Assembly: GCF_030913705.1 (NCBI RefSeq)
Contig: NZ_CP133190.1
Location: 2,681,501-2,745,500 of the forward strand
Reading direction: 5' to 3'
Source of the DNA: Anaerocolumna sp. MB42-C2
GTDB taxonomy: Bacteria; Bacillota; Clostridia; Lachnospirales; Lachnospiraceae
Length of the DNA stretch: 64,000 nucleotides
Shown here: piece by piece, positions 7,052 to 63,308 of the stretch
Layout of the letters: each line of letters starts with the position of its first letter
Numbering within the stretch: position 1 is the stretch's first letter
Translations under genes and position numbers: made by a program
Notes under the pieces: generated by a model
Seen by the model: the letters and a program-made list of their open reading frames with translations, nothing else
The model's database searches: none
Told to the model about the DNA's origin: nothing

Positions 7052-7073
7052 ATTAATCCTTACCTTTCTGGTA

Positions 7074-7102: not shown

Positions 7103-7388
7103 GAAAGAGTTTTTAGGTATATACTCTCTTGTATTATATCATATATATGTAAAATTTCATAATAAAAAATCGGTAGGTTTGTTTCAGTTACAATGATCAT
7201 ATAAAATATATTTTGGTAATATTTTGATAAAGTACTATTGTAAGTTGGTGGACTTTACTATACAATAACTGCATACTTAGATATTTTACTATTTTTCTAC
7301 AATAAAGGTAAGACAGTTTTGATAAACTATTGATTTTATGGATTTAAATTTACTAATATTTTATTTATTACTTAGGAGGATGTATTAA

Positions 7389-8444: not shown

Positions 8445-8463
8445 TTTAAATTGTTCTCATTCT

Positions 8464-8515
8464 AAAAAAGCAATTACATAATATACATTACTGCATATTA
8501 TGCAATTGCTTTTTT
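8464..8515. terminator. bidirectional terminator between convergent genes
   Basis: A long stem is formed by AAAAAAGCAATT-ACATAATAT and ATATTATGCAATTGCTTTTTT, with an A-run on one side and a T-run on the other. It serves the DUF1796-type gene and possibly the convergent deacetylase gene. Confidence 0.8.
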
Positions 8516-8551
8516 ATGTTATTTAATAGTTTATTTCATTTAAACCGTTAA

Positions 8552-45610: not shown

Positions 45611-45672
45611 AATTTTATCCGCATATTTTTCAAGAAGAAATGCTTTGAGAGAGATGCATAAACGAATTCATG

Positions 45673-45705
45673 AAAAGTGTGCGGATAACAAAAATCTTCG
45701 GATAA
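45673..45705 (-). repeat. right terminal inverted repeat of the RIT element
   Basis: 33 bases, perfect inverse of 41543-41575. Confidence 0.93.
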
Positions 45706-45706
45706 A

Positions 45707-45736
45707 CCTTCTTTTCTGAATATTCGGAAAAGAAGG
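45707..45736. repeat. 30-bp near-perfect palindrome at the right RIT junction
   Basis: CCTTCTTTTC (45707-45716) and GAAAAGAAGG (45727-45736) surround TGAATATTCG, itself containing the palindrome GAATATTC. The final GAAGG is the presumed core shared with the target, so this may be the strand-exchange region. Confidence 0.7.
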
Positions 45737-45905
45737 TGATGGTTTTGTCCTGGCATACAAGCGTCTTGCTGACGGTCGGTTCCTTTGGCCAAGGAATGAA
45801 GCAGAGGTACTTCATATCTCGGAACAACAGTACCGATGGCTGATGGATGGTCTGGCTATCGAACAGAAAAAGCGGATTCATACGGTAACACCTACTCTGA
45901 TCTAA
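45737..45905 (+). pseudogene. tnpB: IS66 tnpB, 3' part (interrupted)
   Basis: Continues TnpB with D-G-F-V-L-A-Y-K-R-L, then F-L-W-P-R-N and Q-Q-Y-R-W-L-M-D-G-L, to a TAA at 45905. See the 5' part for the reconstruction. Confidence 0.9.
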
Positions 45906-46031
45906 GAGTGGATTACATACAGTTTTATGGTACCCTGACAGCTGAATATGGGGACAAAAATATTGAAACAAAAGTGCTTCAAATACGTATAAACACTGGT
46001 AAAATCAACGTTTTTGTGGTACAATGAAGTC

Positions 46032-47711
46032 ATGGAAAATACGTTGATGAACAGGGAAAAACTGAATAACGTACCGCATGAATTTCTGGTTGAAATGTAT
46101 ATGCAGCTGCAAAGATCATTCGACATCATAAACGATCAGTTGGAAACTGTCCAAGGTCAGAATACAGAACTTATGAAGCAGTTGAAAAACCTTCAGGATA
46201 AAGTAGATATCCTTACCGAATATCGTTTTGGCCGCAAATCAGAAAAGAATCTTTCTGATCCAGGTCAGCTTACGCTCAATCTTGAAACCGGTGAAGTCTT
46301 CAATGAAGCAGAACAGTTAGCGGATGAACATCCTCTTTCTGAAGAGCCGGACATCGAAGAAGTGATCGTCCGTCGGAGGAAAAGCAAAGGTAAGCGTGCC
46401 GAGGACATCAAGGATGTCGAGCGCATCGTGGAACCTACCATTACCATTCCTGACGAGGAGCTTGCTGTCCTCTTCCCATCCGGTTACCGGATGCTTCCGG
46501 ATGAAGTATATACAGATCTTGAGTTTATTCCGGCTAAGTTTGTTGCTCATGAACATCATTATGCCGTATATGCAGGAAAAGGCGATAAGAGTCTTGTCGT
46601 ACGTGCATCCAGGGACTACAAAGCACTGCGGATCCTTGACAACAGTCTTCTGACCAGTTCCTTGATGGCAGGCATTATTGATGACAAGTATGTGAACCAT
46701 ATGCCTGCGAACCGGATCCATGAAGATTTTCTCCGAAAAGGAGTCGAGATATCCAGGCAACGGTTGGCTCACTGGTGTATCTACATTGCAGAACGATATC
46801 TCTCCCATATGTATGAGCGAATGAAGCAGGAGCTTCGGAAAGCCAGGCTTCTTCATAGTGATGAGACACCATTTGTGCTCCGTCACCATGAAAATGAGGA
46901 GCAGCGTAGCAAGGATTACATGTGGGTATACCATACCGATCAGAAGTATGGATCACCATCCATCTATGTTTATGATTATCCACTGAATGGTTCAAGAAAT
47001 GTTGATGCTATATCAAAATTTCTAGCTGGCTTTAACGGGATACTCGTCACGGATGGATATCAGGTATATCATTCCCTGGAGAAAAAGGATCCGGACCGCT
47101 TTACGGTGGCAGGCTGTTGGGTTCATGCAAGACGTAAGTTTGCCGAGTACCTGAAATCGAACAAAGCAAACGTCAGGGACACCATAGCATTGGAAGCAGT
47201 TCAAAGAATCTCATCCATATATGATGCAGATAAATCTGCAAAGGATAAGTCCGAGGAAGAACATTTACAACATCGAAAAGAGAAAGTAAAGCCTCTTGTA
47301 GATGCTTATTTTGCGTGGGTAAAAACCATTGCAACAAGCGGAAACATTGATAAAGGTAATGCCGTATACCGTGCATCATCCTATTCCATCAATCAGGAAA
47401 AGTTTCTTCGGGAGTTCTTAAACAATCCGATCATTCCACTTGATAACAACGATGCCGAGCGGAGTATCCGGAGCTTCTGTATCGGAAAACATAACTGGTA
47501 TGTCATTGATACTCCAAAGGGAGCGACCAGCAGTGCCATGCTTTACAGTATTGCTGAAACAGCAAAGGCAAACAATCTAAAGACCTTTGAATACCTGAAA
47601 TATCTTCTGGATCAACTGGTGTTTCATTCGAATGACAGATCCGATGATTACCTGGATGATCTTGTCCCGTGGTCAGATAAACTACCTGACAGCTGTAGGA
47701 AAACTAAATAA
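46032..47711 (+). CDS. tnpC: IS66 transposase TnpC
   Basis: 559 residues from ATG 46032; an upstream TTG at 46014 is less likely. The order is a leucine-zipper region (about 15-60), the conserved Y-R-F-G-R-K-S-E-K motif and the DDE transposase domain. Acidic residues are in L-H-S-D-E-T-P, L-V-T-D-G-Y and N-N-D-A-E-R-S-I-R. Complete and apparently functional, although the interrupted tnpB probably blocks autonomous movement. Confidence 0.92.
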   Translation: MENTLMNREKLNNVPHEFLVEMYMQLQRSFDIINDQLETVQGQNTELMKQLKNLQDKVDILTEYRFGRKSEKNLSDPGQLTLNLETGEVFNEAEQLADEHPLSEEPDIEEVIVRRRKSKGKRAEDIKDVERIVEPTITIPDEELAVLFPSGYRMLPDEVYTDLEFIPAKFVAHEHHYAVYAGKGDKSLVVRASRDYKALRILDNSLLTSSLMAGIIDDKYVNHMPANRIHEDFLRKGVEISRQRLAHWCIYIAERYLSHMYERMKQELRKARLLHSDETPFVLRHHENEEQRSKDYMWVYHTDQKYGSPSIYVYDYPLNGSRNVDAISKFLAGFNGILVTDGYQVYHSLEKKDPDRFTVAGCWVHARRKFAEYLKSNKANVRDTIALEAVQRISSIYDADKSAKDKSEEEHLQHRKEKVKPLVDAYFAWVKTIATSGNIDKGNAVYRASSYSINQEKFLREFLNNPIIPLDNNDAERSIRSFCIGKHNWYVIDTPKGATSSAMLYSIAETAKANNLKTFEYLKYLLDQLVFHSNDRSDDYLDDLVPWSDKLPDSCRKTK

Positions 47712-47865: not shown

Positions 47866-48840
47866 TTAAATTTCTCCCCACTCGGAGAGCATTCGCTCAT
47901 AGCAATCAATCAGTCCGTATTTCGGTTTCCATCCGAGTTTGCTGATTTTATCTATGTCCAGTTTATAGCCTGTCTCCGGTGCATAGCCTAATTTTACGGT
48001 ATCGGGCGGTATGTCTATGATAATATTCACACCGTATTTGTCCGCCAAAAGTTCAGCCATATCTCGGATTGTCATACATGTTTCAGGGTTGGAAACATTA
48101 TAAGCTTGCCCGTTTTCACCTTTCAAAAGCAAGGTAAACAGTGCGGTAACCGTGTCGGCGATGTAGCAGTAATTGCCGCGAGACTTGCCTTCCGTGTGCA
48201 GAATTATGTCAGTTTTGTTTTGAACTGATTTTGCGAATTGTGCAAAAACTCTCGTGTCGGTTTTAGGTGTTCCAGCACCGAAAGTCTGTGCAAGCCTTGC
48301 AATTTTAACAGGTACTTTGAACTGATAATGATACAAATTGCATAGCAACTCGCCGAGGCGTTTACTTTCGGGGTAGCAACTTCTCGGATTAGATAAATCA
48401 ACAAACCCAAGCATATCCTCCGTAATCTCGCCATCAATTTGCCCGTAAACTTCCATTGACGACAAATTCACCACGCTTTTGCACCCGTAAATTCGGGCTA
48501 ATTCAAGCACGTTGCGAGTGCCGTCAATTGACGTTTTTATGACTTCAAGCGGTTTGCTTACCATATTCGCGGAACTCGTAATCGCCGCACAGTGAAAAAT
48601 ATAGTCGGCGTGTTCGGTGATTTGGAGCGGCTGACAAATATCGCCGTGCGTTTTTCTCGTGTGGGCGATGATGTTTATATTGAGGTTATATTTCTCGTTC
48701 AGCGCAGTTAAAGCACGGACTATAGCACTGCCGATAAGCCCGCCTGAACCGGTTATGAGGACGGTTGAGTTGGCGAGGGTCTGCCAAAGCAACGGTACGC
48801 CCGTGATGTGTTCGTTGTCTTGATGAAGATAGTTTATCAT
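47866..48840 (-). CDS. NAD-dependent sugar-nucleotide epimerase/dehydratase
   Basis: 324 residues of the extended short-chain dehydrogenase family. The NAD-binding G-S-G-G-L-I-G motif and the catalytic Y-P-E-S-K (YxxxK) with an upstream serine (N-L-S-S-M-E) are present. It probably acts on a UDP- or dTDP-sugar, perhaps downstream of the WecB-type epimerase whose gene it overlaps by 4 bases. Last intact gene of the glycan operon. Confidence 0.85.
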   Translation of the reverse strand: MINYLHQDNEHITGVPLLWQTLANSTVLITGSGGLIGSAIVRALTALNEKYNLNINIIAHTRKTHGDICQPLQITEHADYIFHCAAITSSANMVSKPLEVIKTSIDGTRNVLELARIYGCKSVVNLSSMEVYGQIDGEITEDMLGFVDLSNPRSCYPESKRLGELLCNLYHYQFKVPVKIARLAQTFGAGTPKTDTRVFAQFAKSVQNKTDIILHTEGKSRGNYCYIADTVTALFTLLLKGENGQAYNVSNPETCMTIRDMAELLADKYGVNIIIDIPPDTVKLGYAPETGYKLDIDKISKLGWKPKYGLIDCYERMLSEWGEI

Positions 48841-49934
48841 AATGAATTCTCCAATATATCAGCAATCCGCTTACTTGCGTAACCATCGCCAAATGGATTA
48901 GCCGCCTTACTCATTTTTGTATATTCCTCGCTGCTTTCAAGTAACAGGTTGAAATTTTCGTAAATAGCATTTTCATCCGTCCCCACTAATTTCAGCGTTC
49001 CCGCTTCAATTCCCTCAGGGCGTTCCGTGGTAGTTCGCATTACAAGCACCGGTTTTCCGAAGTGCGGAGCTTCCTCTTGAATACCTCCGCTGTCGGTTAA
49101 AATCAGGTGCGAACGAGCGATAAAGTTATGGAAATCAAAAACATCAAGCGGTTCAATAAGGTGCAACCTATCGGAATTCCCGAATACTTCGTTCGCCGTT
49201 TCACGCACTGCTGGATTTAGGTGAATGGGATAAATCGCCTTAATATCAGGATGTTCGTCAAGCACACATTTAATTGCCCTGAACATATTTTTCATAGGCT
49301 CACCGAGGTTCTCCCGTCTGTGTGCCGTTATCAAAATCAGTCTGCTGTCACTTGCCCATTCAAGTTGCTCGTGGACATAATCGGCTCTAACGGTGTAGCG
49401 GAGAGCATCTATTCCCGTGTTACCTGTCACAAAAATGCTGTCGGGATTTTTGCTTTCTTTGATTAAATTTACTCTTGCCATTTCGGTCGGGGCGAAACTG
49501 AACTTTGAAACAATATCAATCGCTTGACGATTAAACTCCTCGGGATATGGAGAAGTAATATCATACGTCCGAAGTCCCGCCTCAATGTGTCCAATGGGAA
49601 TTTGCAGATAAAAACAGGCAAGAGCAGAGGCAAACGCCGTCGTTGTGTCGCCGTGAACAAGAACCAGCGCGGGATTTATCGCTTTAAGCAACGACTTCAT
49701 TTTGTCAAGAACACTTGACGTAATATCAAACAGCGTTTGCGCCGGTTTCATTAGAGCAAGGTCAAAATCAGGTACAATGTTAAACACTTTCAGCACTTGG
49801 TCGAGCATTTCACGGTGCTGTCCCGTAACGCAAACGAGCGTTTCAAAATCGGGGCGGGATTTTAACTCCAACACAAGCGGACACATTTTGATTGCTTCGG
49901 GACGTGTGCCGAAGATTACTAACACTTTGGACAT
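48837..49934 (-). CDS. wecB: UDP-N-acetylglucosamine 2-epimerase, non-hydrolysing
   Basis: 365 residues, full family length. Recognisable parts are G-T-R-P-E-A-I-K-M, V-H-G-D-T-T-T, H-I-E-A-G-L-R, T-A-H-R-R-E-N-L-G-E and D-S-G-G-I-Q-E-E. It interconverts UDP-GlcNAc and UDP-ManNAc, supplying ManNAc or ManNAcA to cell-surface polymers. Upstream of and overlapping the epimerase/dehydratase gene. Confidence 0.95.
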   Translation of the reverse strand: MSKVLVIFGTRPEAIKMCPLVLELKSRPDFETLVCVTGQHREMLDQVLKVFNIVPDFDLALMKPAQTLFDITSSVLDKMKSLLKAINPALVLVHGDTTTAFASALACFYLQIPIGHIEAGLRTYDITSPYPEEFNRQAIDIVSKFSFAPTEMARVNLIKESKNPDSIFVTGNTGIDALRYTVRADYVHEQLEWASDSRLILITAHRRENLGEPMKNMFRAIKCVLDEHPDIKAIYPIHLNPAVRETANEVFGNSDRLHLIEPLDVFDFHNFIARSHLILTDSGGIQEEAPHFGKPVLVMRTTTERPEGIEAGTLKLVGTDENAIYENFNLLLESSEEYTKMSKAANPFGDGYASKRIADILENSL

Positions 49935-49940
49935 ATATAT

Positions 49941-51128
49941 TTACTCCAGTTCACAATATTTTTTATAGGTTACAGACTCTCTTAATTGCTTCCCAACGGG
50001 AATTTTGTCAAAATCATATTGTGCTTGACTTGCGCCGTTGCACCACGAACAGCCTTGCGGAACGACTACTCCGCTTAAATAATCTCGGAGCAACTGACGA
50101 TTGCAATGCATTTCAGAAAAATCCACACTGTTGGTAACATTAATTGGAATATGTCCTAGTTCTCTTTCGGCGGCAAGAAAACTACATATATAGAATTTTG
50201 AACCTTTCAGTTGGACACAAAAATGACATTCGGCACGCTTTTTCGCGCCATCCTCATGCTTTTCAGATATTGCGCGGATTCTGCTCCAATGCGGATGTTT
50301 TAATACTCTATGCTTAATACTGTTGCTTTTTAACAAATCAACCAATTCAACCAGTTTACACGAAGCATCACCATAATCAGATATATCTACTTCAACATCG
50401 GTTTCTTTCATCACTCTCACAACATCGCTTTTAGGAATTAACGTACCATTAGTAATCAGCACGGGGCGTCTGCCAAATTGCTCTTCGCGCACGCAATATA
50501 GAATTTTCGGTAAATCAGGGTGAATAAACGGCTCCCCTCCCCGTATCATCAGATAATCAACGTAGTCAATATATTTTTTTGCATTGCTTATTCCTTTTTT
50601 TATTATTTCAAAAGGGACATCCGTCTGACGGACGAAATAGTGCATTAACGCCGCACAACCATCGCATTTGAGCGTGCACCTGTCTGTTATCATTAAGTCA
50701 ATTGCATCAAAGCAGATTGCGTCCGCTCTTTTTGAAGTCTCTAAACCGGCTAAAAAACGGTTCGTATTAATTTCTCGTTGCCAAGAAAAATAAAACTCTT
50801 CCGGCTTAATTGCCATAAGCGACTCCAAGTCTATTCGTGTTGAGGCAATAATTTCGTCGTCCTTCGACATTAAATCCTCATATTTCGAAATTTCGGAAAA
50901 CCCCAAACGTTCACATTCCATCATTATTTCCAGTTGGTGAACTTTATGACATATATAAACCTTGGCATTTTCACTCGCCTCATAAGGTTCAATAAGTATC
51001 CCTTTATACTCTTTGCCTTGCAACATTACGCTTTTGTCAAAAAAACGAACGTTCTCGCCACTCGCTATAAGTTTTTCTGCCAAATACACGGCTTTTAACG
51101 TAAATGGAGCAATTATATTAATTTTCAT
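49941..51128 (-). CDS. radical SAM protein with N-terminal Rossmann-like module
   Basis: 395 residues. The radical SAM cluster is C-T-L-K-C-D-G-C (CxxxCxxC) near residue 153. Extra cysteines near the C-terminus (C-H-F-C; C-S-W-C) suggest a SPASM-like auxiliary cluster. The first 90 residues are different and resemble the Rossmann-like module in neighbouring proteins (F-F-D-K, K-G-I-L-I-E-P-Y-E, L-G-F-S-E-I). The start abuts the stop of the pyruvyl transferase gene (TAAATG). Possible role: a radical modification of a sugar or lipid-linked intermediate. No small peptide substrate gene is seen beside it. Confidence 0.82.
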   Translation of the reverse strand: MKINIIAPFTLKAVYLAEKLIASGENVRFFDKSVMLQGKEYKGILIEPYEASENAKVYICHKVHQLEIMMECERLGFSEISKYEDLMSKDDEIIASTRIDLESLMAIKPEEFYFSWQREINTNRFLAGLETSKRADAICFDAIDLMITDRCTLKCDGCAALMHYFVRQTDVPFEIIKKGISNAKKYIDYVDYLMIRGGEPFIHPDLPKILYCVREEQFGRRPVLITNGTLIPKSDVVRVMKETDVEVDISDYGDASCKLVELVDLLKSNSIKHRVLKHPHWSRIRAISEKHEDGAKKRAECHFCVQLKGSKFYICSFLAAERELGHIPINVTNSVDFSEMHCNRQLLRDYLSGVVVPQGCSWCNGASQAQYDFDKIPVGKQLRESVTYKKYCELE

Positions 51129-52148
51129 TTATGATTGTACCTCCAATTGATTTAGTAGCCAATTTTTAGAATCATTGATATGTTGTTGCAGTAAAAACGC
51201 CGGTTTGTCCCATTCAATATTATTGCGGAAATTAATAAAATTTGAATGGGTCACAAGACGCTCGTGTAATCCGATTTTATTTAGAAACGAATCTATTCTT
51301 TCTCCTGAATGTTTGTACATCACATTGAATTGCTTAGCAAAAATCGCAGAAAAAGAACATCCATGGAAGGACGAAACGAATACATATTCCGCATTCTTTA
51401 TAAGAGAGACAAAATCAAACGGCGAAATATTCTTTTTTATTATTCTTCCACAAGATTCGCGAAGATAGCTATTGCCGTGAAGATCGATTAAATACACCGG
51501 CAACAAACTGCCATTATTACGCATAAATGTATCAATAATATCATACATTGTCGAAGATGCAAACTGCTGATTGTACACAAATACATATGGCTTATCGAGT
51601 TGCAAACTTTGTGCACAGAGACTTGACCAAGTTTGAGTATCAAGCAATAAGGTTGGATCGCAAGTGTGATGTATCGGGTTGCTATAATATGGTTGCAAAA
51701 AATCTTTCAATAAACTTTCACGCACAGCAATAGCGTCAAAGTTCTGTAACAACGCGGGCAAATCTAATAAATCTTTTTGCCGATATGCTTTCATATTCGC
51801 ACTTGCGGAAAACGCAATATTCTTGCCACTTTCAAATACTTTTCCAAAATATGCTGTATCAAAGCCTTTAAATGTAGAAAAATCAAACGGATGCCATACC
51901 GTATCGCTTCCGTATATGATGATATCGTATTTATCATCGATGCCATATGGTTTAGGCATAATGTTTTCGCATATAAATTTTTCAAATACGGAATTTGTTG
52001 CAGGATATACACTTCTATGATAATCGGGAGCATAATCAATAACCGACACATCAAATCCTTTCTGTTGCAGAAACATTTTAAGTGCGTAACATTGAAGCAA
52101 AGCCCCGTAATTATGTGCAAAATGGAAAGTTACAATGCCAATTTTCAT
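51129..52148 (-). CDS. polysaccharide pyruvyl transferase family protein
   Basis: 339 residues. It starts I-G-I-V-T-F-H-F-A-H-N-Y-G-A-L-L-Q, the mark of the WcaK/CsaB family, and contains S-F-H-G-C-S-F in the C-terminal half. Members add ketal-linked pyruvate to surface sugars, using phosphoenolpyruvate. It overlaps the FrhB-like gene by 4 bases; these two families commonly travel together in polysaccharide loci. Confidence 0.9.
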   Translation of the reverse strand: MKIGIVTFHFAHNYGALLQCYALKMFLQQKGFDVSVIDYAPDYHRSVYPATNSVFEKFICENIMPKPYGIDDKYDIIIYGSDTVWHPFDFSTFKGFDTAYFGKVFESGKNIAFSASANMKAYRQKDLLDLPALLQNFDAIAVRESLLKDFLQPYYSNPIHHTCDPTLLLDTQTWSSLCAQSLQLDKPYVFVYNQQFASSTMYDIIDTFMRNNGSLLPVYLIDLHGNSYLRESCGRIIKKNISPFDFVSLIKNAEYVFVSSFHGCSFSAIFAKQFNVMYKHSGERIDSFLNKIGLHERLVTHSNFINFRNNIEWDKPAFLLQQHINDSKNWLLNQLEVQS

Positions 52149-53236
52149 TTTGAGATATACTCCTTTATGAGTTTCAAAACAGATTCCCCTTTGCCGAATC
52201 TGTCATTAAATTCGCTCCGATATACTGACGGAGTCGGTTGATTGGTAATCATTGGAAGGTTTTTGCCTAACCATTCATCAGACAAGGTTACTTTCTTTTG
52301 CGTACAAAATGGTTTGCAATGTTCAAACAAGTCTTCTCCTCTTTGTGTATGAACAATCATCAAACTTGTTCCCCCGTCGTCAAATAAATCATCATCAAAA
52401 TCTCGCACATTCCAGAAATCTGCAAGCGTGAAATCGCTTTTGTGCTTTTTCTCTCGAAATTTACACTGATAACAACATGAACGCGATATTAAATGGTAGG
52501 AACAAAATGCCATTACATAATTATCACTTCCAATGTTCGCATATTTATTTGCAAACTTAAATTCTTGTGCGAACATTGTCCAGGGCCTGGACTTTGTTCG
52601 CATATTTATTTTTTGTAATTTTGATCCATATTCTTTTTCCATTTCACGAACATAGTCCGCCCAATATAGCGGGGAAGTGATAGAGTTACACACAAAATCA
52701 ACAGTATAAAGGTTATCGTGAACCCCAGTGATTTGCAATAAACCGGCCACTTGGCAGGGGCAACCTGAATACAACACAAGTTTGCCTTGTCCAAGCAGAT
52801 TAATAATTTCAGTATATGCAGAAAGAGTATTGCTTTGGACATATTTTGATTGACGCAATTCCTTTAAATCCTCAGTTACCGCAACGCCGATGTGACGAAC
52901 TTCAAAATCAGCCGTAAACGCCGCACCGAAAACAACTCCATTTCTGCGAATAACCTCCTCTGCAATCAGGCTAAATGCTCCACCCGTGCTAGACTGTTTC
53001 CGCACTTCCCAGTTATTGTGAATAACACCATAAAATGCACTCGGTTCTTCTTGCATTGGATACTCGTTCTTTAATAATGGACATACGTTTTTGCAAATTT
53101 CGCAATTTACACATTTACTTTCATCTACAACAGGATATAAAAACGCCTTGCGGTACTCCATTGAAATAGCACCATATGGGCATTTTATTTTGCATACCCC
53201 ACAACCAGTACAAAGTTCGTCGCTAACTATTTTCAT
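52145..53236 (-). CDS. FrhB-like iron-sulfur protein (coenzyme F420 hydrogenase/dehydrogenase beta-subunit family)
   Basis: 363 residues. Two 4Fe-4S ferredoxin motifs open the protein (C-T-G-C-G-V-C-K-I-K-C-P and C-V-N-C-E-I-C-K-N-V-C-P). The FrhB N- and C-terminal domains follow (S-S-T-G-G-A-F; Y-S-G-C-P-C-Q; F-R-E-K-K-H-K-S-D-F-T). It is probably a flavin-dependent reductase acting on a glycan precursor; F420 itself is unlikely in this organism. Overlaps both neighbours by 4 bases. Confidence 0.9.
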   Translation of the reverse strand: MKIVSDELCTGCGVCKIKCPYGAISMEYRKAFLYPVVDESKCVNCEICKNVCPLLKNEYPMQEEPSAFYGVIHNNWEVRKQSSTGGAFSLIAEEVIRRNGVVFGAAFTADFEVRHIGVAVTEDLKELRQSKYVQSNTLSAYTEIINLLGQGKLVLYSGCPCQVAGLLQITGVHDNLYTVDFVCNSITSPLYWADYVREMEKEYGSKLQKINMRTKSRPWTMFAQEFKFANKYANIGSDNYVMAFCSYHLISRSCCYQCKFREKKHKSDFTLADFWNVRDFDDDLFDDGGTSLMIVHTQRGEDLFEHCKPFCTQKKVTLSDEWLGKNLPMITNQPTPSVYRSEFNDRFGKGESVLKLIKEYISK

Positions 53237-56200
53237 TTCATCACCTTTTGGTCAGAGAATTTTTCGCACAAGTACAAAACCCTTGTTGACTCAGAATTTT
53301 TCACTTGCAAAATTTTATATCTTTTGCAAAGTTCCGCCTCAAAATTATCCTTTGTGTACCAACCAAAGTCCGCATTTTTAAGCGCGAGTGAAACAACACT
53401 GTCTTCGCGTTCAATCCACTCAATAATAAGCCATTTTGTTGAAAACGACGCAAACTGTCCTATTATTTCTTTGAACGATAACTGTTGCGCAAACGCCAAA
53501 TGGTGCATAACGGCAAGGGCAAGAACCATATCGCTTTTCATTCTTTTTATTGCGCTGTCACGCCAAGGAACAATTGCGGTGTTTCCAATAGGCGTGTCGC
53601 GGTAATAATCAGGCGTTGGAGTAATAAGGTTGAGATACACCGGATAAATATTCTTAATCCCATTGGTAGCAACCGTCTTGAAGACAAAATCCACACAGGC
53701 GTGGTCTAAATCGGCGACAATATAACGCTCAACCTCGTTTTTGAGAGCAAAGCCATACCAGCCCATATTTCCCGCCAAATCTATAATAGTTTTAGGGCTG
53801 ACACTGCGAACCATTTCGATTACGGCGTTTTGCTTTTCTGAGAGTTTTTCACTTTCACCTGTGTCATATAATTCGTTTTGATAGCCATTCCAACCTGTTT
53901 GGAACATTTCGCCCAAATCTATGCTTTTAATATATTCACTTAGAACATCGCAACATTTTTGTATTTCCCCATCAACCGAATATTGATTACACTCGGAAAA
54001 CACTTTATTAAACAGAGCAACTTTCTCTGTGGATAAATACGCCGAAACATCCTTAAATGACAGTTTTTGTTCAGCATTGTTAAGATACAAATATGCCTTT
54101 TCACGCAAGTTCTCTGACATCATCAGCAAAATAACGAAGTGGTCGTTAATAAATTCTTGCAGATAAAACCAAGGCATTTTACCAATACGAACCGCATCAA
54201 AATCAAAGAACACAAATTTGCCGTTATTGAATGTCGCGTTAAATGCGTGACCGTCTAAGCAACAGAGCCCGTTTTTATCTAATTCCGCAAAAAAGTCGAG
54301 CATAAACAAAGTATAATCATAAAACATCTGCGGTGACCATTCTACGCAATATGTGACCATCGGCAAAAACTCATGTTTGAAACAAAGCGGATAGCCGTCT
54401 GCGATTTTTTTATCTGAAATTTCAGTCGGAACTAAATATTTATTAAACAATCCGCCAGACGCACAGTGTGAAAATACATCTTTGTATTCGTCAGACAAAT
54501 CATTTGCTATTAAGCGGTACACGCAGTTTTCGGTTCTATCGACAACAAGCCTATTTTTGGCAACGGTTTTCACCATTTCCATATTAGATGACAGATGTAA
54601 AACCCCTGATGTATCCCCGAAATTCGTATATCCGCCCAAGAATATCTTACTCCATTCAAAGAAATCAACTTCATAATCATAACCGTATTCCGCAAGTTGC
54701 TCTTTTATTTGCGGAAAAAATTTATATCCAACAGTAACGATTACTTTGCATTTGCTTTTATCGCCCGAACGCAATATTTCAGGGGAACTGATTGTAATTC
54801 CGCCTAAACTGCCGCCCCACAGTTTGCTGTTGTTATCAACAATGCCGTCAATTTTCATATCCGAACGCTCGGCGTAATACAGCGCGTTTCGGCAATCCGC
54901 ACCGGCTCCGAAAAATATAGTCTTTTTGCCGTTATCATTTTTCCCTCTTTTTGCGCCTTTCCATATTACAAACAAGTCATCACGCTCGTCATCGCTTTTT
55001 TGATGCAACTCGCTTGAAGAAACATCATCGCAGTATTCTTTTAATAATTCTTCTAAAACATTCCTGTCAGGCCATCTTTCCCAAGGCGGTGTATCAAGTC
55101 TGCCCCAACCGGACAACTGCTTATCAATGATAATTATTTTACCGCCAAACTTGCACACACGGGCAAGTTCCCTGATAGCCGCACGTAAATTCGGCGAATG
55201 TTCTATACATTCAACCGTGTAAATCACATCGAACAAGTCATTTCCAAACGGCAAAAACTCAATATCGCCGACAGTTGTATTAATCGTATCAGGAACATAA
55301 GAAAGCATTCCGCTTGAAATATCAACACCCTGCAAATCACATTCCGGATATTCCTCTTGAATACGTTTCAGTATCCTGCCTTTGCCGCAACCTACTTCTA
55401 ATACGCTGTCGCCGTCTTTAATTTCGCTGATAACCTTTGTAACTTCGGCATTATCTTTTTCGATTGTATCAGGCGCAACAAGCGAAAACTCATTGTCAAA
55501 ATGAGACTTTATCATCAATTTATAGGCGTCAAGATAAAACTTAACAGCCCAAGACAATTCGCGGTCGGGATAATATTCCGCTCCGTCACCAACACTACCT
55601 AAAAATCCTCCATTATTTTCCATAGCGGATTCTAAATATTTCATTATACGGTTTGCAGGTTCATACTTTTCGAGTTTGTAAAGGCAAATCGCAATTTGTG
55701 AACAGCCCGTTAAGCACACCCAATCCACACCCTCAAACGCCGGAATAGAACCGTCCTCTTTTTGAGAAGCGAGCAGTTTATCAATAATCTCTGTCACGGC
55801 ATCAGTATAGCCCATATCAATAAGTCCGTCAATTTGATATGCGAGGAAATGCGTTAATGTTTTAATCGAGCAAACATCCGGGGCGGACAAATAGGTTTTA
55901 ACCGCATTATGAACCTGCTCTATTTTGCCATTGTCATTTGTCAACTTCGCAAAATCAAGCATTGCGGGCAAGGCGAACAGCATTATTGTTTCTGGGATAA
56001 TTTTGTCGTCCTCGTAACTTTTCATGAAAATGCCGCCGTTACTTTCAAGGGCGTTGAAAAGATATTTTGCCGCCCTGCACTGTATGCCGTAGTATTTGTT
56101 GGTAACTTTATAAATGGCGTTAAGGCCGCGTAAGGCCTGCGCGGTGTCGAACAAATACGGGCGTTCTGACCCTGCGGCGTTAAAGGAGCCGTCATTATTG

Positions 56201-56751
56201 ATAATGGAATTCAAGAATTTAACCATATTTTCGGCTTGTTCTTTGAACCCATATTGGAGCATAGTCGGAATAATATATCCAGTCACTTCCGGATATTCAT
56301 ATTCACAACCACGATATACCGAAACGCCGCCGTTTGCCTGCTGATTCTCCAAAATCCAAGTTAAAGCTTTTTCAACGGAACTGGCGTTCGGGAACTTGAA
56401 CGGTGGTATTTTGTAATGTGATTTGAACAGAAAGTAAGACGCAAAATTGTTAAACCCAAGTTCACTAAGTTGTGATGAAACCTCGCTGAAAAAGTTACAA
56501 GAAATCAATATCAAATAAATATTCTTGTCAATTTCGCTCGGCGAAACAATTTTAATGCCACCGATAGTTTCGCCGTAACGATTGGGGTTATTGTCGGCAA
56601 TACAAGCTATTTCAATCCCGTTTTCAAGCAGAAACTTTACCGCTTCCTGACCAATTTGCCCTGCACCAAATAAGGCGATTCTCTTTCCGGCAGACTCGTT
56701 TTCGAGTTTGCTTATAAGCGACAGAATTTGTTTTTTTGGTAATAACGACAT
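53233..56751 (-). CDS. 1172-residue multidomain protein: Rossmann - toroid - methyltransferase - Rossmann - kinase-like - methyltransferase
   Basis: Order of parts: (1) Rossmann-like module 23-110 with L-F-G-A-G-Q-I-G and I-A-D-N-N-P; (2) helical repeats 121-415 with recurring G-G-V-S, N-D-G-S-F, N-G-G-I-F and E-D-G-S-I turns, like the alpha/alpha toroid of terpene cyclases or glycosidases; (3) class I methyltransferase 430-600 (L-E-V-G-C-G-K-G-R at 451-459); (4) second Rossmann-like module 608-700 (F-F-G-A-G, V-D-N-N); (5) kinase-like part 735-900 with L-D-G-H-A-F-N-A-T and F-D-F-D, resembling aminoglycoside/LPS kinases; (6) second methyltransferase 965-1165 (D-L-A-G-N-M-G, V-M-H-H-L). No signal peptide. 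It overlaps the FrhB-like gene by 4 bases and lies 2 bases after the double GT gene, so it is part of the glycan operon. Domain calls are from motifs; function unknown. Confidence 0.78.
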   Translation of the reverse strand: MSLLPKKQILSLISKLENESAGKRIALFGAGQIGQEAVKFLLENGIEIACIADNNPNRYGETIGGIKIVSPSEIDKNIYLILISCNFFSEVSSQLSELGFNNFASYFLFKSHYKIPPFKFPNASSVEKALTWILENQQANGGVSVYRGCEYEYPEVTGYIIPTMLQYGFKEQAENMVKFLNSIINNDGSFNAAGSERPYLFDTAQALRGLNAIYKVTNKYYGIQCRAAKYLFNALESNGGIFMKSYEDDKIIPETIMLFALPAMLDFAKLTNDNGKIEQVHNAVKTYLSAPDVCSIKTLTHFLAYQIDGLIDMGYTDAVTEIIDKLLASQKEDGSIPAFEGVDWVCLTGCSQIAICLYKLEKYEPANRIMKYLESAMENNGGFLGSVGDGAEYYPDRELSWAVKFYLDAYKLMIKSHFDNEFSLVAPDTIEKDNAEVTKVISEIKDGDSVLEVGCGKGRILKRIQEEYPECDLQGVDISSGMLSYVPDTINTTVGDIEFLPFGNDLFDVIYTVECIEHSPNLRAAIRELARVCKFGGKIIIIDKQLSGWGRLDTPPWERWPDRNVLEELLKEYCDDVSSSELHQKSDDERDDLFVIWKGAKRGKNDNGKKTIFFGAGADCRNALYYAERSDMKIDGIVDNNSKLWGGSLGGITISSPEILRSGDKSKCKVIVTVGYKFFPQIKEQLAEYGYDYEVDFFEWSKIFLGGYTNFGDTSGVLHLSSNMEMVKTVAKNRLVVDRTENCVYRLIANDLSDEYKDVFSHCASGGLFNKYLVPTEISDKKIADGYPLCFKHEFLPMVTYCVEWSPQMFYDYTLFMLDFFAELDKNGLCCLDGHAFNATFNNGKFVFFDFDAVRIGKMPWFYLQEFINDHFVILLMMSENLREKAYLYLNNAEQKLSFKDVSAYLSTEKVALFNKVFSECNQYSVDGEIQKCCDVLSEYIKSIDLGEMFQTGWNGYQNELYDTGESEKLSEKQNAVIEMVRSVSPKTIIDLAGNMGWYGFALKNEVERYIVADLDHACVDFVFKTVATNGIKNIYPVYLNLITPTPDYYRDTPIGNTAIVPWRDSAIKRMKSDMVLALAVMHHLAFAQQLSFKEIIGQFASFSTKWLIIEWIEREDSVVSLALKNADFGWYTKDNFEAELCKRYKILQVKNSESTRVLYLCEKFSDQKVMK

Positions 56752-56753
56752 TT

Positions 56754-58487
56754 TTATTCTCCTTTTATCCAGTTAAGCAGTTCCAAGTTAAGAAACCGCT
56801 CTGCGTTTTCATTATATCCGCGAGCCGACGACAGGCATTTTAGTGCATTTCCCTTGTCTTTTAAAACATAACAGGCACGAATATTTTTAAGATATGCCCT
56901 CATAGCAATTTGCGAAGTGTATTTGCTTGCGTTTTCTGCTAAATTTTTCAATGACAATTTCAATCTTATTCGCTGAATCTCTTTCTGTTTTGTCATTGTA
57001 AGCGATATTGTGGAACGACGGTATAGATAATTTGCCTCGTTTATTCTGCCGAAAATATAGCCTTTATTGTATGCCGTCAGCCAGAAAAGCCAGTCTTCCA
57101 CTAAAAACCAGTTTTTATCATACCCGCCAACATCTGCGTAGACATCCCTACGGAACATAAAGTACCCGCCAATTGCAGAAATTATAGGGATTTCCTCAGG
57201 GTCACCGATATAATCACCTGCGATTTTGTTACCGAAATCGTCAATATATATTTCATTTCCATAAACAACATCTGTTTCAGGATTTTGATTAAGGTATTTT
57301 ACTAACGTCTCAATGCCATTCGGCAAATATATATTGTCGTCACTTGTCCAAGTGAAAAATTCGCCTTTGGCAAGTTCAAAACCTGTGTTTAGTGCCTGGG
57401 GCAGATATTGGTTTTTGTCATGCTTTACACTACGAACACGGTCATCCTTGTTTATATACTCGGCGATTATGTTCGGTGTTTCATCCGTGCTGCAATCATC
57501 AACAATAATCAATTCCCAGTTTGCATATGTCTGCGAAATAACGCTGTCGAGGCTTTCACGCAAAAACAGTGAGCCATTATATACAGGAAGCACTATTGAA
57601 ACTAATGGCTGTGCCATAACCCACTCCTTAATTTGCGGTTTTAATAAGTCCAAAGCATTCTCATTTATTTGTTGCGCTTTTTCCAAACATTTCAGACCTG
57701 CCAAAATATCAGGGATACGATAAGCAAAACCAACACACTTCAAATACGAGCGAACAACAATTTCAGTCGAATAAATATGCTGATTATTTTCCAAATTTTC
57801 AAGCGACAATTCCATACATCGTCTTTGTATGTCAGTGGCTCTCGTTGAGGTTAGCGACTGCGAACTGTCACGGTATTTATAATTGCATTCATTAATTTTG
57901 TTAAAAATGAATCCGGTGTTATACGCTTTCAGCCAAAAATGCCAGTCCTCAACCAGAAACCAATCAGGCTCATATCCGCCGACTTCGAAATACACTTTCT
58001 TTCTAAAAAGAAAGTAACCGCCAACGCAAGACAATATCGGTATACACTCAGGTTCAAGAATTTGTGCAATGGCATCGGGCTTTACTATTTCATTATCGTT
58101 GCTGTCAATTATTTGCTCGTTCCCATAGACAACGTCTGTTTCAATATTTTGCCTAAGATAATTCACCAATGTTTCGATTCCGTTCGGCAGATAGATATTA
58201 TCGTCGCTCGTCCAAGTGAAAAGTTCACCTTTTGCAAGTTCAAAGCCTGTGTTTAGTGCCTGAGGCAAATATTTATTTTTGTCGTGCCTTACGCTACGAA
58301 TACGGCTATCCTTGTTTATATATTCAGCGATTATGGTTGGCGTTTCGTCCGTACTGCAATCATCAACAATTATAAGTTCCAGGTTTGCATATGTCTGTGC
58401 TATGACACTATCGATACTTTCACACAAGAACCGCGAACCGTTAAATACGGGAAGCACTATTGAAACAAATGGTAAAGAATCATCCAC
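56754..58487 (-). CDS. tandem double family 2 glycosyltransferase
   Basis: 577 residues made of two very similar halves (1-290 and 291-577). Each starts with V-S-I-V-L-P-V-(F/Y)-N-G-S and contains V-D-D-C-S-T-D-E-T-P, N-T-G-F-E-L-A-K-G-E, the T-S-D-D-N-I-Y metal-binding motif and the acceptor-side E-D-W motif. Each has a helical C-terminal tail ending near N-E-N-A. Both active sites look intact, so it may add two sugars or repeat one linkage. The near identity points to a recent internal duplication. It overlaps the next GT gene by 8 bases. Confidence 0.9.
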   Translation of the reverse strand: MDDSLPFVSIVLPVFNGSRFLCESIDSVIAQTYANLELIIVDDCSTDETPTIIAEYINKDSRIRSVRHDKNKYLPQALNTGFELAKGELFTWTSDDNIYLPNGIETLVNYLRQNIETDVVYGNEQIIDSNDNEIVKPDAIAQILEPECIPILSCVGGYFLFRKKVYFEVGGYEPDWFLVEDWHFWLKAYNTGFIFNKINECNYKYRDSSQSLTSTRATDIQRRCMELSLENLENNQHIYSTEIVVRSYLKCVGFAYRIPDILAGLKCLEKAQQINENALDLLKPQIKEWVMAQPLVSIVLPVYNGSLFLRESLDSVISQTYANWELIIVDDCSTDETPNIIAEYINKDDRVRSVKHDKNQYLPQALNTGFELAKGEFFTWTSDDNIYLPNGIETLVKYLNQNPETDVVYGNEIYIDDFGNKIAGDYIGDPEEIPIISAIGGYFMFRRDVYADVGGYDKNWFLVEDWLFWLTAYNKGYIFGRINEANYLYRRSTISLTMTKQKEIQRIRLKLSLKNLAENASKYTSQIAMRAYLKNIRACYVLKDKGNALKCLSSARGYNENAERFLNLELLNWIKGE

Positions 58488-59610
58488 AGTAAGTTCCTTC
58501 TTTCTTTTCTATGAAATATTCAATGATATTTTCTGCTATATCATAAGTAAGCCCGACAAAGTCATCACTCGAATCATTTTTCGGTATTTTTATAACGGGC
58601 TTTTCAAAAGTTTGAGTGCAATCAGAGTAGCAGATTATGAAGTCCGCTGTCTCTATATCGCTGACAATTTGCTCAACGAAAACGACTGCTTTGTCCGTTC
58701 CGCTTATTAACGCATTATCCCCGCTTGCATAGAACTTGCAAGCCCATAACTTTTCAAGGTTAGTATCAATCGTCAACAAATACTCCTTGATTTTCTCGAA
58801 TTCTGATTTCTCCACAATAAAATTATTAAATCTGCGGCACAGAAAGCGCATTTGCGATATAAACATTTTCTTGAATTCATCAATATAAGTTTCGAATACT
58901 CCAAGTTTTATCAGGTTTTGTTTAAGAGTTTGCAAAGCCTCAATTAAACAATTCCCGTCATAGTTCTCCGACAAACTGTTTTTTCTGTTTCTGTAATAAT
59001 TAACAAGTGGCTTTTTCACATAACTTACTGTTTTTGCATACGCTACAACAGCCGGGATTACCGCAACATCTTCAAAATAATTTAAGTTCGGAAACCGCAT
59101 ATTGTCAAACAAACTTTTACGATATACTTTGCCCCAACAAAATGTTCTGCAAACATTAAGCCTGCGAATAACATCGTCAAAACGAATTCTTGAAACAGAC
59201 AAGTCTCCAGTAACGGAATCGATATAATTTATATCACATACGGCAATGTCGGAACTATTTTCTTTCACCACATCGATCATATGTTCAATAAAAAAACTGT
59301 CAATTGAATCATCGGAATCCAAAAACGATATATATTCGCCCGTTGCTTGTTCTATTCCGAAATTTCTCGCCGCACTTACACTATTTATAGGCAAGTAAAA
59401 ATATTTGAACCGACTATTTTTTTCCCCAAATTCAGCGCATATCTTTCTGCTACCATCAGTTGAGCCGTTGTCTACGCACAGTACTTCTAAATCTTTGTAC
59501 GTTTGTCCTGCCACAGAAGACAGACACCGTACAAGAAACAGTTCCGAATTGTAAATCGGGATAATTATGCTTACCATTATTTTACTTGCACTTGTTGATA
59601 TTACCGACAT
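58480..59610 (-). CDS. family 2 glycosyltransferase (capsular/EpsJ-like)
   Basis: 376 residues. The GT2 core (V-S-I-I-I-P-I-Y-N-S; V-D-N-G-S-T-D-G-S; A-R-N-F-G-I; the F-L-D-S-D-D metal site) is followed by a helical C-terminal region of about 150 residues. It likely transfers one sugar onto a lipid-linked glycan. A later ATG at 59577 would also fit the family start. Confidence 0.9.
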   Translation of the reverse strand: MSVISTSASKIMVSIIIPIYNSELFLVRCLSSVAGQTYKDLEVLCVDNGSTDGSRKICAEFGEKNSRFKYFYLPINSVSAARNFGIEQATGEYISFLDSDDSIDSFFIEHMIDVVKENSSDIAVCDINYIDSVTGDLSVSRIRFDDVIRRLNVCRTFCWGKVYRKSLFDNMRFPNLNYFEDVAVIPAVVAYAKTVSYVKKPLVNYYRNRKNSLSENYDGNCLIEALQTLKQNLIKLGVFETYIDEFKKMFISQMRFLCRRFNNFIVEKSEFEKIKEYLLTIDTNLEKLWACKFYASGDNALISGTDKAVVFVEQIVSDIETADFIICYSDCTQTFEKPVIKIPKNDSSDDFVGLTYDIAENIIEYFIEKKEGTYCG

Positions 59611-59680: not shown

Positions 59681-60742
59681 TCAATACGCATATAGCACCG
59701 TGTCCACATAAGCGTTGGTATGATGCCGCAAATAGAACTTATAATCCGGTCTAAATTTATGAATTAACATTGGCAATCTGTATAAATCGTCATCGCAATG
59801 GTAGACGGAAATCGCCAGTTTCGGTTTTGTTTCCGTGATAATACGTTCCGCACCAAGCAAAGCGTCATATTCTCCGCCTTCAATATCCATTTTTATAAGA
59901 GTCGGCGGGATTTTCATTGTGTCAAGTTTCATTATGTTTACTTTTGTCAAATTTTTATCACTGGCATTTTGAACTATTTTACTGCTCATAGTTCCACGCA
60001 TATCAAAACTTATCTCTCCATTCACATTTCCGACAGCCATGTTGAGTAATTGAATTTTGTCCATATCGCCGAAACAACGTTGCAACAAGGCGTAGTTCGT
60101 GTTGTCGGGTTCAAAGCCGTATACTGCTTTATATTTTCCGTTTGTTTCGAAGATAAAATCTACAATATTCCGCCCGTCATAAACTCCGCAATCCGCGAAA
60201 ACTTCATTTTCCGCAAGCGTAAGAATGTCGTTAAAATACATTGGTTCTTTGCTCGACAAATCGCTGAAATCCATATTAGCGGTTCTGTATTTTTCTATGA
60301 TATTTTTGTAAAGTTCTTTAGATTGGGGGTCAAATAACACTATACATTCTTCAATATCAAGTTCTTGCAAAACATTATATTTTCTCACCAAAAAATGCGT
60401 ATCTGTCAGAGCGGTTTCAGGAATAGGTTCATCAGCATTTTTATATTCGTTCGAGTAAATATCCGCAAATCCGAGCGACCGTAACTGCAAAGCTATTTCT
60501 CTATAAAATTCAGTATTAATAATTACCGTGATGTTATCGGCATTTTCGTCAAGCAATTTTGATGAATTGAATATTGGTTTACCGTAAAAACTCCTGCCTT
60601 GCAGCAAAGGATTATTGTCAAGAAAATATGCGATTTTATCTTTAAGCAGTTCTATTTCAATTCGGGAATATGTTCCGCAACCAAAGAAAACAAGTTGTTT
60701 CCCTTGCAAAATTTTGGTTACACAAGTTGCTAATACTGACAT
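59681..60742 (-). CDS. FkbM-family methyltransferase with N-terminal Rossmann-like module
   Basis: 353 residues. An N-terminal module (residues about 15-105: F-F-G-C-G-T-Y, F-L-D-N-N-P, R-S-L-G-F) resembles those of the large fusion protein. From about 175 it has an FkbM SAM-dependent methyltransferase (A-D-C-G-V-Y-D-G-R; G-F-E-P-D-N; L-I-K-M-D-I-E-G-G-E). FkbM enzymes O-methylate sugars. The gene lies 17 bases after the cytidylyltransferase gene. Confidence 0.88.
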   Translation of the reverse strand: MSVLATCVTKILQGKQLVFFGCGTYSRIEIELLKDKIAYFLDNNPLLQGRSFYGKPIFNSSKLLDENADNITVIINTEFYREIALQLRSLGFADIYSNEYKNADEPIPETALTDTHFLVRKYNVLQELDIEECIVLFDPQSKELYKNIIEKYRTANMDFSDLSSKEPMYFNDILTLAENEVFADCGVYDGRNIVDFIFETNGKYKAVYGFEPDNTNYALLQRCFGDMDKIQLLNMAVGNVNGEISFDMRGTMSSKIVQNASDKNLTKVNIMKLDTMKIPPTLIKMDIEGGEYDALLGAERIITETKPKLAISVYHCDDDLYRLPMLIHKFRPDYKFYLRHHTNAYVDTVLYAY

Positions 60743-60759: not shown

Positions 60760-61479
60760 TTATATCCCAAGTATCTGCTCATTCTCCATTGCCTCATATA
60801 AGGCGCGGAAGATGTAGAAATCTTGGGGTTTTGTGATTTTAATATTGTTGGTCGAGCTTTTAACGATGTTCATTTTTGTGCCATAATGACTGCACAGATT
60901 AGCAGAATCAATTGCACGAAATCCGTCAGATTTAGCCCGTTTATACAACTCATAAATCTCGCCGTAACGAAAACTTTGAGGTGCTTTCGCGGAATACATT
61001 TCCCAACGTGAGGGAACATCACCAACTGTTTTACCGTCAACGCTTCTGATAACACTCTCTACGACAGGTTCGCAAGTTATCGCGTTCCCGAATTCTTTTA
61101 CCTTGGCGATGTTCTCAGAAATCAATTCTGCGTTTATCAACGGACGGACTCCATCGTGAATAAGCACAATATCGTCAAATTTGTGCATTTCTTCCATTGC
61201 TTTCAACCCGTTGTAGATGGAATAATCTCCGCCCTCGGGATTGCCCGCAACTATCTTTGACACCTTGGTAATCTCGTAAAGCCTAAGAAACCGACGGAGT
61301 TCTTTAATCCAGTTTTCAAGACAAACAACAACAATCTCATCCACTTCGTTGTGAAATTCAAAGTGTTCAATCGTATAAATTAAAATCGGTTTGCCGTGCA
61401 GTTCAAGGAATTGCTTAGGCTTTTTCGCTGTGTTCATTCTTATGCCGGTTCCTCCGGCGAATATCAGTGCAGTGGTCAA
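60760..61479 (-). CDS. IspD/TarI-like cytidylyltransferase
   Basis: 239 residues, starting at TTG 61479 after GGAAGGTG. The N-terminal F-A-G-G-T-G-I-R-M, the K-K-P-K-Q-F motif, the I-H-D-G-V-R-P motif and the late D-S-A-N segment place it with IspD, TarI and Bcs1. Given the glycan setting it more likely makes CDP-ribitol or a CDP-activated pentulose/alditol phosphate than the isoprenoid precursor. No matching dehydrogenase (TarJ) is seen here. First clearly recognisable enzyme gene after the propeller protein in the operon. Confidence 0.85.
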   Translation of the reverse strand: MTTALIFAGGTGIRMNTAKKPKQFLELHGKPILIYTIEHFEFHNEVDEIVVVCLENWIKELRRFLRLYEITKVSKIVAGNPEGGDYSIYNGLKAMEEMHKFDDIVLIHDGVRPLINAELISENIAKVKEFGNAITCEPVVESVIRSVDGKTVGDVPSRWEMYSAKAPQSFRYGEIYELYKRAKSDGFRAIDSANLCSHYGTKMNIVKSSTNNIKITKPQDFYIFRALYEAMENEQILGI

Positions 61480-63039: not shown

Positions 63040-63308
63040 TTTTACTCCTACTGTTTCTTGAAAATTAGTTGTGTCGACGTAATAAGCATTTGACATTCCT
63101 ATTGCTACAACCGTACCATTGATATGGATAGAAAACACCCGATTTTCGTCGCTTTTTCCTATGAAAGCTTCCGTGTTTTGCGACCATTTGCAACCAAAGT
63201 TATCCTAATACGCAACCAAATGCGACCGCCGAATTGAATTATTTACTTATATTCATTACCCTCATTCAAGGAAATCCGATGTATTATCATAAATGCCAAA
63301 ATCTTCTT

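Follow-up and report, generated by a model that had tools for sequence, protein, structure and literature searches.

A NoeA-type kinase-methyltransferase joined to a toroid-methyltransferase module in a candidate flagellin-glycosylation island of Anaerocolumna

Introduction

The subject of this study is a gene for a 1172-residue fusion protein from Anaerocolumna sp. MB42-C2, located in a window of 64,000 nucleotides (the whole stretch of DNA that we analyzed), and its closest described counterparts are enzymes that combine a kinase with a methyltransferase in one chain. Those of the NoeA type are familiar from the nodulation genetics of the 1990s, and we know of none with a demonstrated reaction. 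According to the family description, NoeA/Lani_1194 proteins are kinase-methyltransferases with around two thousand homologues, 94% of which carry the methyltransferase; the usual kinase lysine (Lys72) is most likely an arginine, the equivalents of Asp166, Asn171, and Asp184 are conserved, and that text reports an ion-pair Glu as not found (PMC9758233).

WbdD of E. coli O9a, likewise a kinase and methyltransferase of a glycan pathway, is described as methylating a phosphate and as having a coiled-coil ruler and a partner ATP-binding cassette (ABC) exporter (PMC11231755). The same article gives a biochemical demonstration that, in K. pneumoniae O7, another methyltransferase-kinase makes a methyl-phosphate cap, and the kinase of the enzyme in question, ORF6, differs from that of WbdD (PMC11231755). 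ORF6 resembles our fusion protein by description only, as a large multidomain methyltransferase-kinase behind a terminal methyl phosphate, and differs from it in domain order and in its coiled-coil, carbohydrate-binding, and GT2 modules. For flagellin, a glycan with phosphate and methyl is described in Clostridioides difficile, where the type A glycan has had a phosphotransferase and a methyltransferase assigned to it (PMC10714395).

Our favored account, to which we give slightly less than an even chance, is that the Anaerocolumna protein would be a cytoplasmic glycan-tailoring enzyme with two catalytic modules in one chain that makes a methylated phosphate, likeliest on the flagellin glycan. 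The combination of modules, a recurrent link between toroids and kinase-methyltransferases, the WbdD-type signature of the second methyltransferase, and the flagellar setting all seem to be new; as a family, the kinase-methyltransferase half has been published before.

One reading frame joins two modules

The fusion gene lies at positions 53233–56751 on the minus strand (2,734,733–2,738,251 of a single-contig genome of 6.44 Mb) and encodes its 1172 residues from an ATG start with no stop inside; frame 1 of the plus strand over the same interval is full of stops. A preliminary description of this DNA had pointed out the frame, without a strand, and had read a series of six motifs from it. The frame is real, and all six motifs are present in the order proposed, with LFGAGQIG at residues 27–34, the toroid at 116–425, and LEVGCGKG at 451–458 in the N-terminal half, and CLDGHAFN at 831–838, FDFD at 849–852, and DLAGNMG at 991–997 in the C-terminal half.

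From the N-terminus, the chain comprises a PglD_N-like Rossmann domain (residues 6–115; 56407–56736), an alpha/alpha toroid (residues 116–425; 55477–56406), a class I methyltransferase of the Methyltransf_11 type (MT1; residues 430–603; 54943–55464), a second PglD_N-like Rossmann domain (residues 604–700; 54652–54942), a NoeA-type kinase-like domain (approximately residues 735–945; 53917–54549), and a second class I methyltransferase similar to those of NoeA and WbdD and assigned by family homology (MT2; approximately residues 950–1165; 53257–53904), all on the minus strand. The two Rossmann parts are homologous to each other (29.7%, 1e-13); MT1 and MT2 fail to align, and we therefore rejected the idea that they are duplicates of one methyltransferase. 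Judged by homology, the fusion is made of two modules that are otherwise produced as separate proteins, module A (residues 1–603) and module B (residues 604–1172), and since homologues of each half align along most of its length, the six-part layout goes beyond chance. The combination of two methyltransferases with a kinase-like domain, also claimed in the preliminary description, was borne out with an intact catalytic D/N/D set. Pfam profiles recognize MT1, whereas the assignment of the kinase/MT2 half draws on stand-alone homologues of around 460 residues; similarly, structure prediction gave a good model of residues 1–603 whose folds could be matched and a poor one of residues 604–1172.

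That no named enzyme has this make-up holds for the whole chain within the searches made; each half, however, is a known or recurrent module. There was no phage match for the protein at E 1e-5, and no described protein of this composition was found in the open PMC literature. A PDB search with the single whole sequence returned relatives of MT1, plus two weak matches that we took as chance and set aside, one to a de novo protein (0.065) and one to an aminolevulinate dehydratase (0.53).

Module B belongs to the NoeA family and carries a WbdD-like methyltransferase

Residues 720–1172 gave nothing of weight in Pfam (only DUF1706, E 0.05), and the second PglD_N-like domain was placed by its likeness to the first and by the NCBIfam NeuD/PglB model TIGR03570, which matches residues 611–691 far below its cut-off. 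By contrast with these profile searches, residues 701–1172 match stand-alone open reading frames (ORFs) of around 460 residues in 5 of 397 other genomes of the phylum, as well as places in 65 plasmid records, some of them annotated as noeA of Sinorhizobium meliloti. Identity to NoeA is 27.6% over 79% of the query; for NoeA/Lani_1194 members, it is 22–27% in the aligned set and 23–33% depending on the stretch, and the BLAST alignments with homologues of the family extend over 435–484 columns. On the strength of these alignments, the C-terminal half is assigned to the NoeA/Lani_1194 kinase-methyltransferase family.

The fusion protein shares with NoeA and Lani_1194 the succession of a kinase-like domain and a class I methyltransferase and the same conserved residues in both, namely R746, D833, N838, and D850, which are invariant among 10 aligned members, and N995, G997, D1014, D1016, D1074, H1083, H1084, and E1111 of MT2. 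Unlike NoeA, it has these domains as its second half, behind the PglD_N–toroid–MT1–PglD_N series, whereas the described family members are stand-alone proteins of around 460 residues that often adjoin a gene for an alkaline-phosphatase-fold protein, as stated in the family description (PMC9758233). Gene pairs resembling NoeA-NoeB were seen on 2 viral-contig records (L100:2706–5533 and L104:4989–8535), where a NoeA homologue is followed by a large ORF with an alkaline-phosphatase/sulfatase fold by eye.

The kinase fold is the least firm of the domain identities and is suggested by the catalytic loop, the conserved residues, and the published family model. In a profile comparison with a different, APH-type family of kinases, this loop aligns at D833, N838, and D850 (local probability 64%, E 6.5e-5). 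A pseudokinase that merely positions the substrate for MT2 would be in keeping with the atypical loop, the Arg in place of the usual Lys, and the ion-pair Glu that the family description lists as not found (PMC9758233), but R746, D833, N838, and D850 are kept in all 10 aligned members, and we consider such a role improbable.

The preference for a reaction sequence in which a phosphate is first placed and then methylated comes from MT2, because the methyltransferase of WbdD is the best solved match of the NoeA profile. When a profile of 10 NoeA-family sequences was compared with 177,635 PDB sequences, the top 4 matches were all WbdD (E 1.3e-4 to 1.9e-4) and covered its methyltransferase domain, followed by 1ve3 at 4.4e-4; in a second, insignificant segment of the same search, the NoeA catalytic loop lined up with the kinase loop of WbdD. 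A profile of the APH-type kinase-methyltransferase family found true kinases at 4.5e-10 and the WbdD methyltransferase at 3.6e-7, with the next methyltransferase among the 60 rows shown at 0.0034, and the methyltransferases of the NoeA and APH-type families align with each other (probability 95%, E 3e-8). As a control, the MT1 profile matched generic methyltransferases, and WbdD was absent from the 60 rows shown of 245. This is moderate evidence that MT2, like WbdD, may methylate a phosphate placed by the kinase to which it is joined. Both proteins combine a kinase with a methyltransferase homologous to the other's in a glycan pathway; in WbdD, however, the methyltransferase comes first, whereas in the fusion protein the kinase-like domain precedes MT2.

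Alternatively, the kinase and MT2 could act at separate places, the kinase on a sugar or small substituent and MT1 and MT2 on sugar hydroxyls or an amino substituent, so that no methylated phosphate would be made. This is how the phosphate and the N-methyl of the C. difficile type A glycan are assigned in the report on it, namely to separate enzymes (PMC10714395), and the island described below holds pseudaminic-acid and cytidylyltransferase genes that would suit it as well. We nevertheless find separate sites rather unlikely, given that the MT2 family is closest in sequence to phosphate-methylating WbdD and that two kinase-methyltransferase families keep both domains in one chain.

Module A combines a toroid of a large unnamed family with MT1

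Both Methyltransf_14 (9e-7) and CoA_binding (2e-5) match residues 6–97 above the Pfam cut-off, Methyltransf_11 matches residues 451–541 (2e-17), and SQHop_cyclase_C matches the toroid region below cut-off. Among the relatives listed, the one closest to module A, from an uncultured Oscillibacter (locus L020), is a stand-alone protein of 602 residues with 58% identity to residues 1–601 that stops at the point where the fusion continues into its second module. When genomes were scanned with an alignment of three toroid sequences, at least 532 confirmed relatives came up, of which the best 80 serve as named loci, with flanks of up to 8 kb around the match (in 41 of the 80, more than 7 kb to either side of the toroid ORF) and with neighboring genes taken as ORFs of at least 100 or at least 130 residues rather than from annotation. 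Toroid and MT1 form a single chain in 39 of these loci (at least 440 matched residues), and 18 of the 39 also carry the first Rossmann-like domain. The family is large and unnamed: none of 6 toroid proteins exceeded any NCBIfam cut-off, and the single annotated plasmid record found labels the toroid a “prenyltransferase/squalene oxidase repeat-containing protein.” Its fold and QW-like repeats do resemble squalene-hopene and type II terpene cyclases, whose catalytic motif is DxDD. We rejected a terpene cyclase or prenyltransferase since the similarity is confined to part of the repeats and DxDD is absent from residues 116–425.

The AlphaFold2 model of residues 1–603 has a mean predicted local distance difference test score (pLDDT) of 92.0 and a predicted template modeling score (pTM) of 0.89. 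MT1 in this model matches 6f5z_B (Z 22.1, root-mean-square deviation [rmsd] 2.3, 189 aligned residues), and the nearest fold to the toroid by VIA-align is the methylmannose polysaccharide hydrolase MmpH (7qsj_B; Z 27.3, rmsd 3.0, 284 aligned residues, 12% identity). Further VIA-align matches are dextran dextrinase (Z 26.2), an alpha-amylase-like protein (25.7), glycosidases (25.5), drimenyl-diphosphate synthase (25.4), cellobiose 2-epimerase (24.6), and unsaturated glucuronyl hydrolase (24.5), and GH88/GH105 enzymes are also among them. These comparisons chiefly test residues 122–422, the Foldseek list for residues 1–603 consists mostly of methyltransferases with MmpH at ranks 2 and 9, and the absence of a family from either list proves nothing. 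The fold of the toroid is thus sure and its function is not, because the matches are all alpha/alpha toroids of varied function. MmpH shares the toroid fold and, as described in its report, acts in a methylated-glycan pathway (PMC9883506), but it is a separate enzyme outside any methyltransferase chain, and its identity to the toroid is low.

An alignment of the toroid from 67 of the 80 loci with the fusion protein (alignment A6, 13 loci left out; the toroid-family alignment A4 comprises 39 of the 80) has 9 polar or aromatic residues invariant in 68 of 68 sequences, namely E155, D202, H301, Y305, C346, Q352, Y393, W401, and K404, besides Y159, F201, and glycines. These residues would suit a toroid that is itself an active sugar enzyme (a glycosidase, epimerase, or transferase), such that module A trims or isomerizes the glycan before methylation. 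The glycosidases, cellobiose 2-epimerases, and GH88/GH105 enzymes among the fold matches point the same way, as does a UDP-GlcNAc 2-epimerase gene that, in 29 of the 80 loci, is no more than 150 bases away from the toroid gene. In the model, E155 lies right where the second toroid helix (154–166) begins, just after the loop that joins the first two helices, and in MmpH the helix A–B loop is reported to hold Asp47, which with Asp50 is a candidate catalytic acid (PMC9883506). However, the counterpart of the MmpH base Glu262 could not be placed, and residue-level equivalence with a known catalytic pair is not established; in addition, the toroid is also found attached to GT2, GT4, and glycerophosphotransferase-type proteins, in the way expected of a binding module. 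We regard an active toroid as a real possibility that falls short of probable, and it is compatible with the favored account of module B.

The epimerase genes in question are of the WecB type and homologous to one in the operon of the fusion gene. They are present in 41 of the 80 loci, and the 29 mentioned above are on the same strand as the toroid gene; clustering instead of homology gives 39 loci, with 25 genes within 60 bases and 27 within 150 bases of the toroid gene. The next most frequent abutting cluster (24 loci) is a loose set of 167 ORFs that by eye includes glycosyltransferases.

The fusion occurs in one genome, but the link between toroids and kinase-methyltransferases recurs

An architecture search across genomes found the exact fusion in 1 of 150 genomes of the family and 1 of 15 of the genus, and residues 604–1172 in 1 of 391 genomes of the class, with the source genome being the positive one each time. 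An assembly or sequencing error that joined two genes would account for this rarity, and the source genome has an estimated contamination of 8.85%. We nevertheless think an artifact scarcely credible: the genome is a single contig, the frame of 1179 codons is unbroken, the G+C content of the gene (0.40) is close to that of the window (0.39), the second PglD_N-like domain is a natural place for a module to begin, and other bacteria have analogous fusions.

These analogous proteins carry the APH-type kinase-methyltransferase, which is joined or adjacent to the toroid in 4 of the 80 loci. The two form one chain in L074 (960 residues, Chitinispirillales) and L048 (1311 residues, Desulfovibrio), and the gene of the kinase-methyltransferase lies 23 and 28 bases from the toroid gene in L056 and L076, respectively. 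The two fusions share with ours the presence of both modules in one chain but differ in kinase family and in having the kinase-methyltransferase first, so that by sequence comparison the joining of the toroid to a kinase-methyltransferase involves two different kinase families and two orders of the modules. The APH-type family was found once in 396 genomes of the phylum (G335), beside a toroid gene; this case is not independent since G335 came from the toroid search, and G335 (locus L013) and L056 are evidently the same contig (both with a length of 201,781) and were counted once.

A proposed route to a methylated phosphate

In the account that we favor, the toroid of module A would grip a sugar chain or sugar nucleotide, and MT1 would methylate a sugar. 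The kinase of module B would phosphorylate a sugar hydroxyl, and MT2 would methylate the phosphate placed by the kinase; the resulting methyl-phosphate group would be of the kind that WbdD makes. Docking, between the modules or with neighboring enzymes, would probably be the role of the PglD_N-like domains, and the likeliest substrate would be the flagellin glycan of the strain, finished before or during its attachment. In a bolder form, NoeA-type enzymes in general would be methyl-phosphate-capping enzymes, the widespread toroid family would be a new group of carbohydrate-active proteins that present the end of the glycan to kinase-methyltransferases, and the fusion would be a whole flagellin-glycan capping machine; we are doubtful that all of this applies.

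A number of results weigh against the favored account. The WbdD match is modest and concerns the methyltransferase only, and with a six-sequence profile WbdD scored 0.015, behind Trm5b at 0.01. The model of residues 604–1172 was poor (four sequences; mean pLDDT 55, pTM 0.47) and does not confirm the kinase fold, and the profile alignment over the whole kinase domain was weak (global probability 5.6%). No NoeB-type protein (sulfatase/phosphatase fold) was among the 10 operon proteins scanned. The NoeA profile found no homologue (E 1e-3) in the flanks of the 80 toroid loci or in L013 and L014, and the pairing of a NoeA-type enzyme with a toroid therefore rests on one genome. Finally, flagellin is linked to the fusion gene by position only, with its gene 28 kb away, and when the 80 toroid loci were scanned with crude motifs, none had a flagellin motif, 1 had a Maf-type motif, and 1 had a NeuB-type motif.

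If the favored account is true, NoeA and its relatives, around two thousand according to the family description (PMC9758233), would gain a testable reaction, and another family would join the makers of methyl-phosphate caps. It also draws attention to the toroid family, which often lies beside UDP-GlcNAc 2-epimerase genes and recurs in fusions with glycosyltransferases, phosphotransferases, and kinase-methyltransferases.

The fusion gene probably belongs to a glycan operon downstream of flagellar genes

The fusion gene overlaps its downstream neighbor by 4 bases and lies 2 bases from its upstream neighbor, and it is therefore probably part of a minus-strand operon that extends from around 61.5 kb to 47.9 kb. 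On its upstream side are an IspD-like cytidylyltransferase (60760–61479; above the NCBIfam cut-off for D-ribitol-5-phosphate cytidylyltransferase), an FkbM-type methyltransferase gene (59681–60742), a GT2 glycosyltransferase (58480–59610), and, directly upstream of the fusion gene, a protein with 2 similar GT2 domains in tandem (56754–58487); in L020 and L021, too, toroid-MT1 is directly preceded by a homologous GT2 gene. Downstream of the fusion gene are genes for an Fe-S/F420 hydrogenase beta-type protein (52145–53236, the one with the 4-base overlap), a polysaccharide pyruvyl transferase (51129–52148), a radical SAM protein (49941–51128), the WecB-type UDP-GlcNAc 2-epimerase assigned by NCBIfam (48837–49934; separated from the fusion gene by 3 genes, whereas its homologues abut the toroid gene in many loci), and a sugar-nucleotide epimerase/dehydratase of the short-chain dehydrogenase/reductase (SDR) type (47866–48840); the remaining assignments come from domain matches. 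Homologues of operon genes near toroid genes are otherwise few among the 80 loci (radical SAM 2, SDR 2, pyruvyl transferase 1, FkbM 4, IspD 6, Fe-S 6). The start of the FkbM-type gene resembles a PglD_N-like domain by eye and matches such a region in L020 at 31%, and at E 0.01 it has no match to either PglD_N-like domain of the fusion.

Further upstream, just outside the window (genome positions 2,751,437–2,775,926; L105:6037–14409 and L108:1650–11026), are PseB, PseC, PseF, PseG, and PseI, all above NCBIfam cut-offs (PseH was not searched for), and beyond them FlgL and FlgK above cut-offs and flagellin, FliD, and FliW with strong matches below the model cut-offs. These neighbors point to a flagellin-glycosylation island, which refines the generic surface-glycan operon of the preliminary description: the glycan operon stands, but the pseudaminic-acid and flagellar genes suggest flagellin as its destination and make the flagellin glycan the likelier substrate. 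For the toroid family as a whole, a flagellar setting is not the rule.

The same neighborhood bears on the preliminary proposal of a terminating enzyme that sets chain length in the manner of WbdD, i.e., a chain terminator that sets the length of a polysaccharide bound for an ABC exporter. The glycans of flagellin are, as a rule, short. Besides the WbdD-like MT2, this proposal could draw on genes for Wzt-size ABC-ATPases, one of which lies one gene from the toroid-adjacent kinase-methyltransferase of HGW-Firmicutes-14 (L013/L056), while others are found around 5 kb or less from NoeA homologues in L016 and L017 and, by motif, in 7 of the 80 toroid loci. It was not borne out and is disfavored because the source genome has no match at E 0.01 to Wzt_C (PF14524), the carbohydrate-binding domain of Wzt. 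Moreover, the domain order is the reverse of that in WbdD, pseudaminic-acid and flagellar genes lie upstream, and the model of residues 1–603 shows no long coiled-coil (its longest helix has 26 residues), with residues 604–1172 being modeled too poorly to add to this. We therefore consider a chain terminator very improbable; the parallel with WbdD is real and lies in the homology of the methyltransferases.

Minor observations concern the neighbors and borders of the operon. In L021, a protein with a sulfatase fold and a radical SAM part in one chain (6396–8912) is clustered with toroid-MT1 and the GT2 gene, and its C-terminal radical SAM part is related to the radical SAM protein at 49941–51128. 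A 472-residue ORF at 61720–63138 is similar to part of an 852-residue glycerophosphotransferase-like protein in L021 and looks like a truncated remnant because the sequence preceding it is riddled with stop codons in the frames that were read. On its low side, the glycan operon is bordered by 2 phage-type integrase genes and an IS66 transposase (43605–47711), which hint at mobility of the island.

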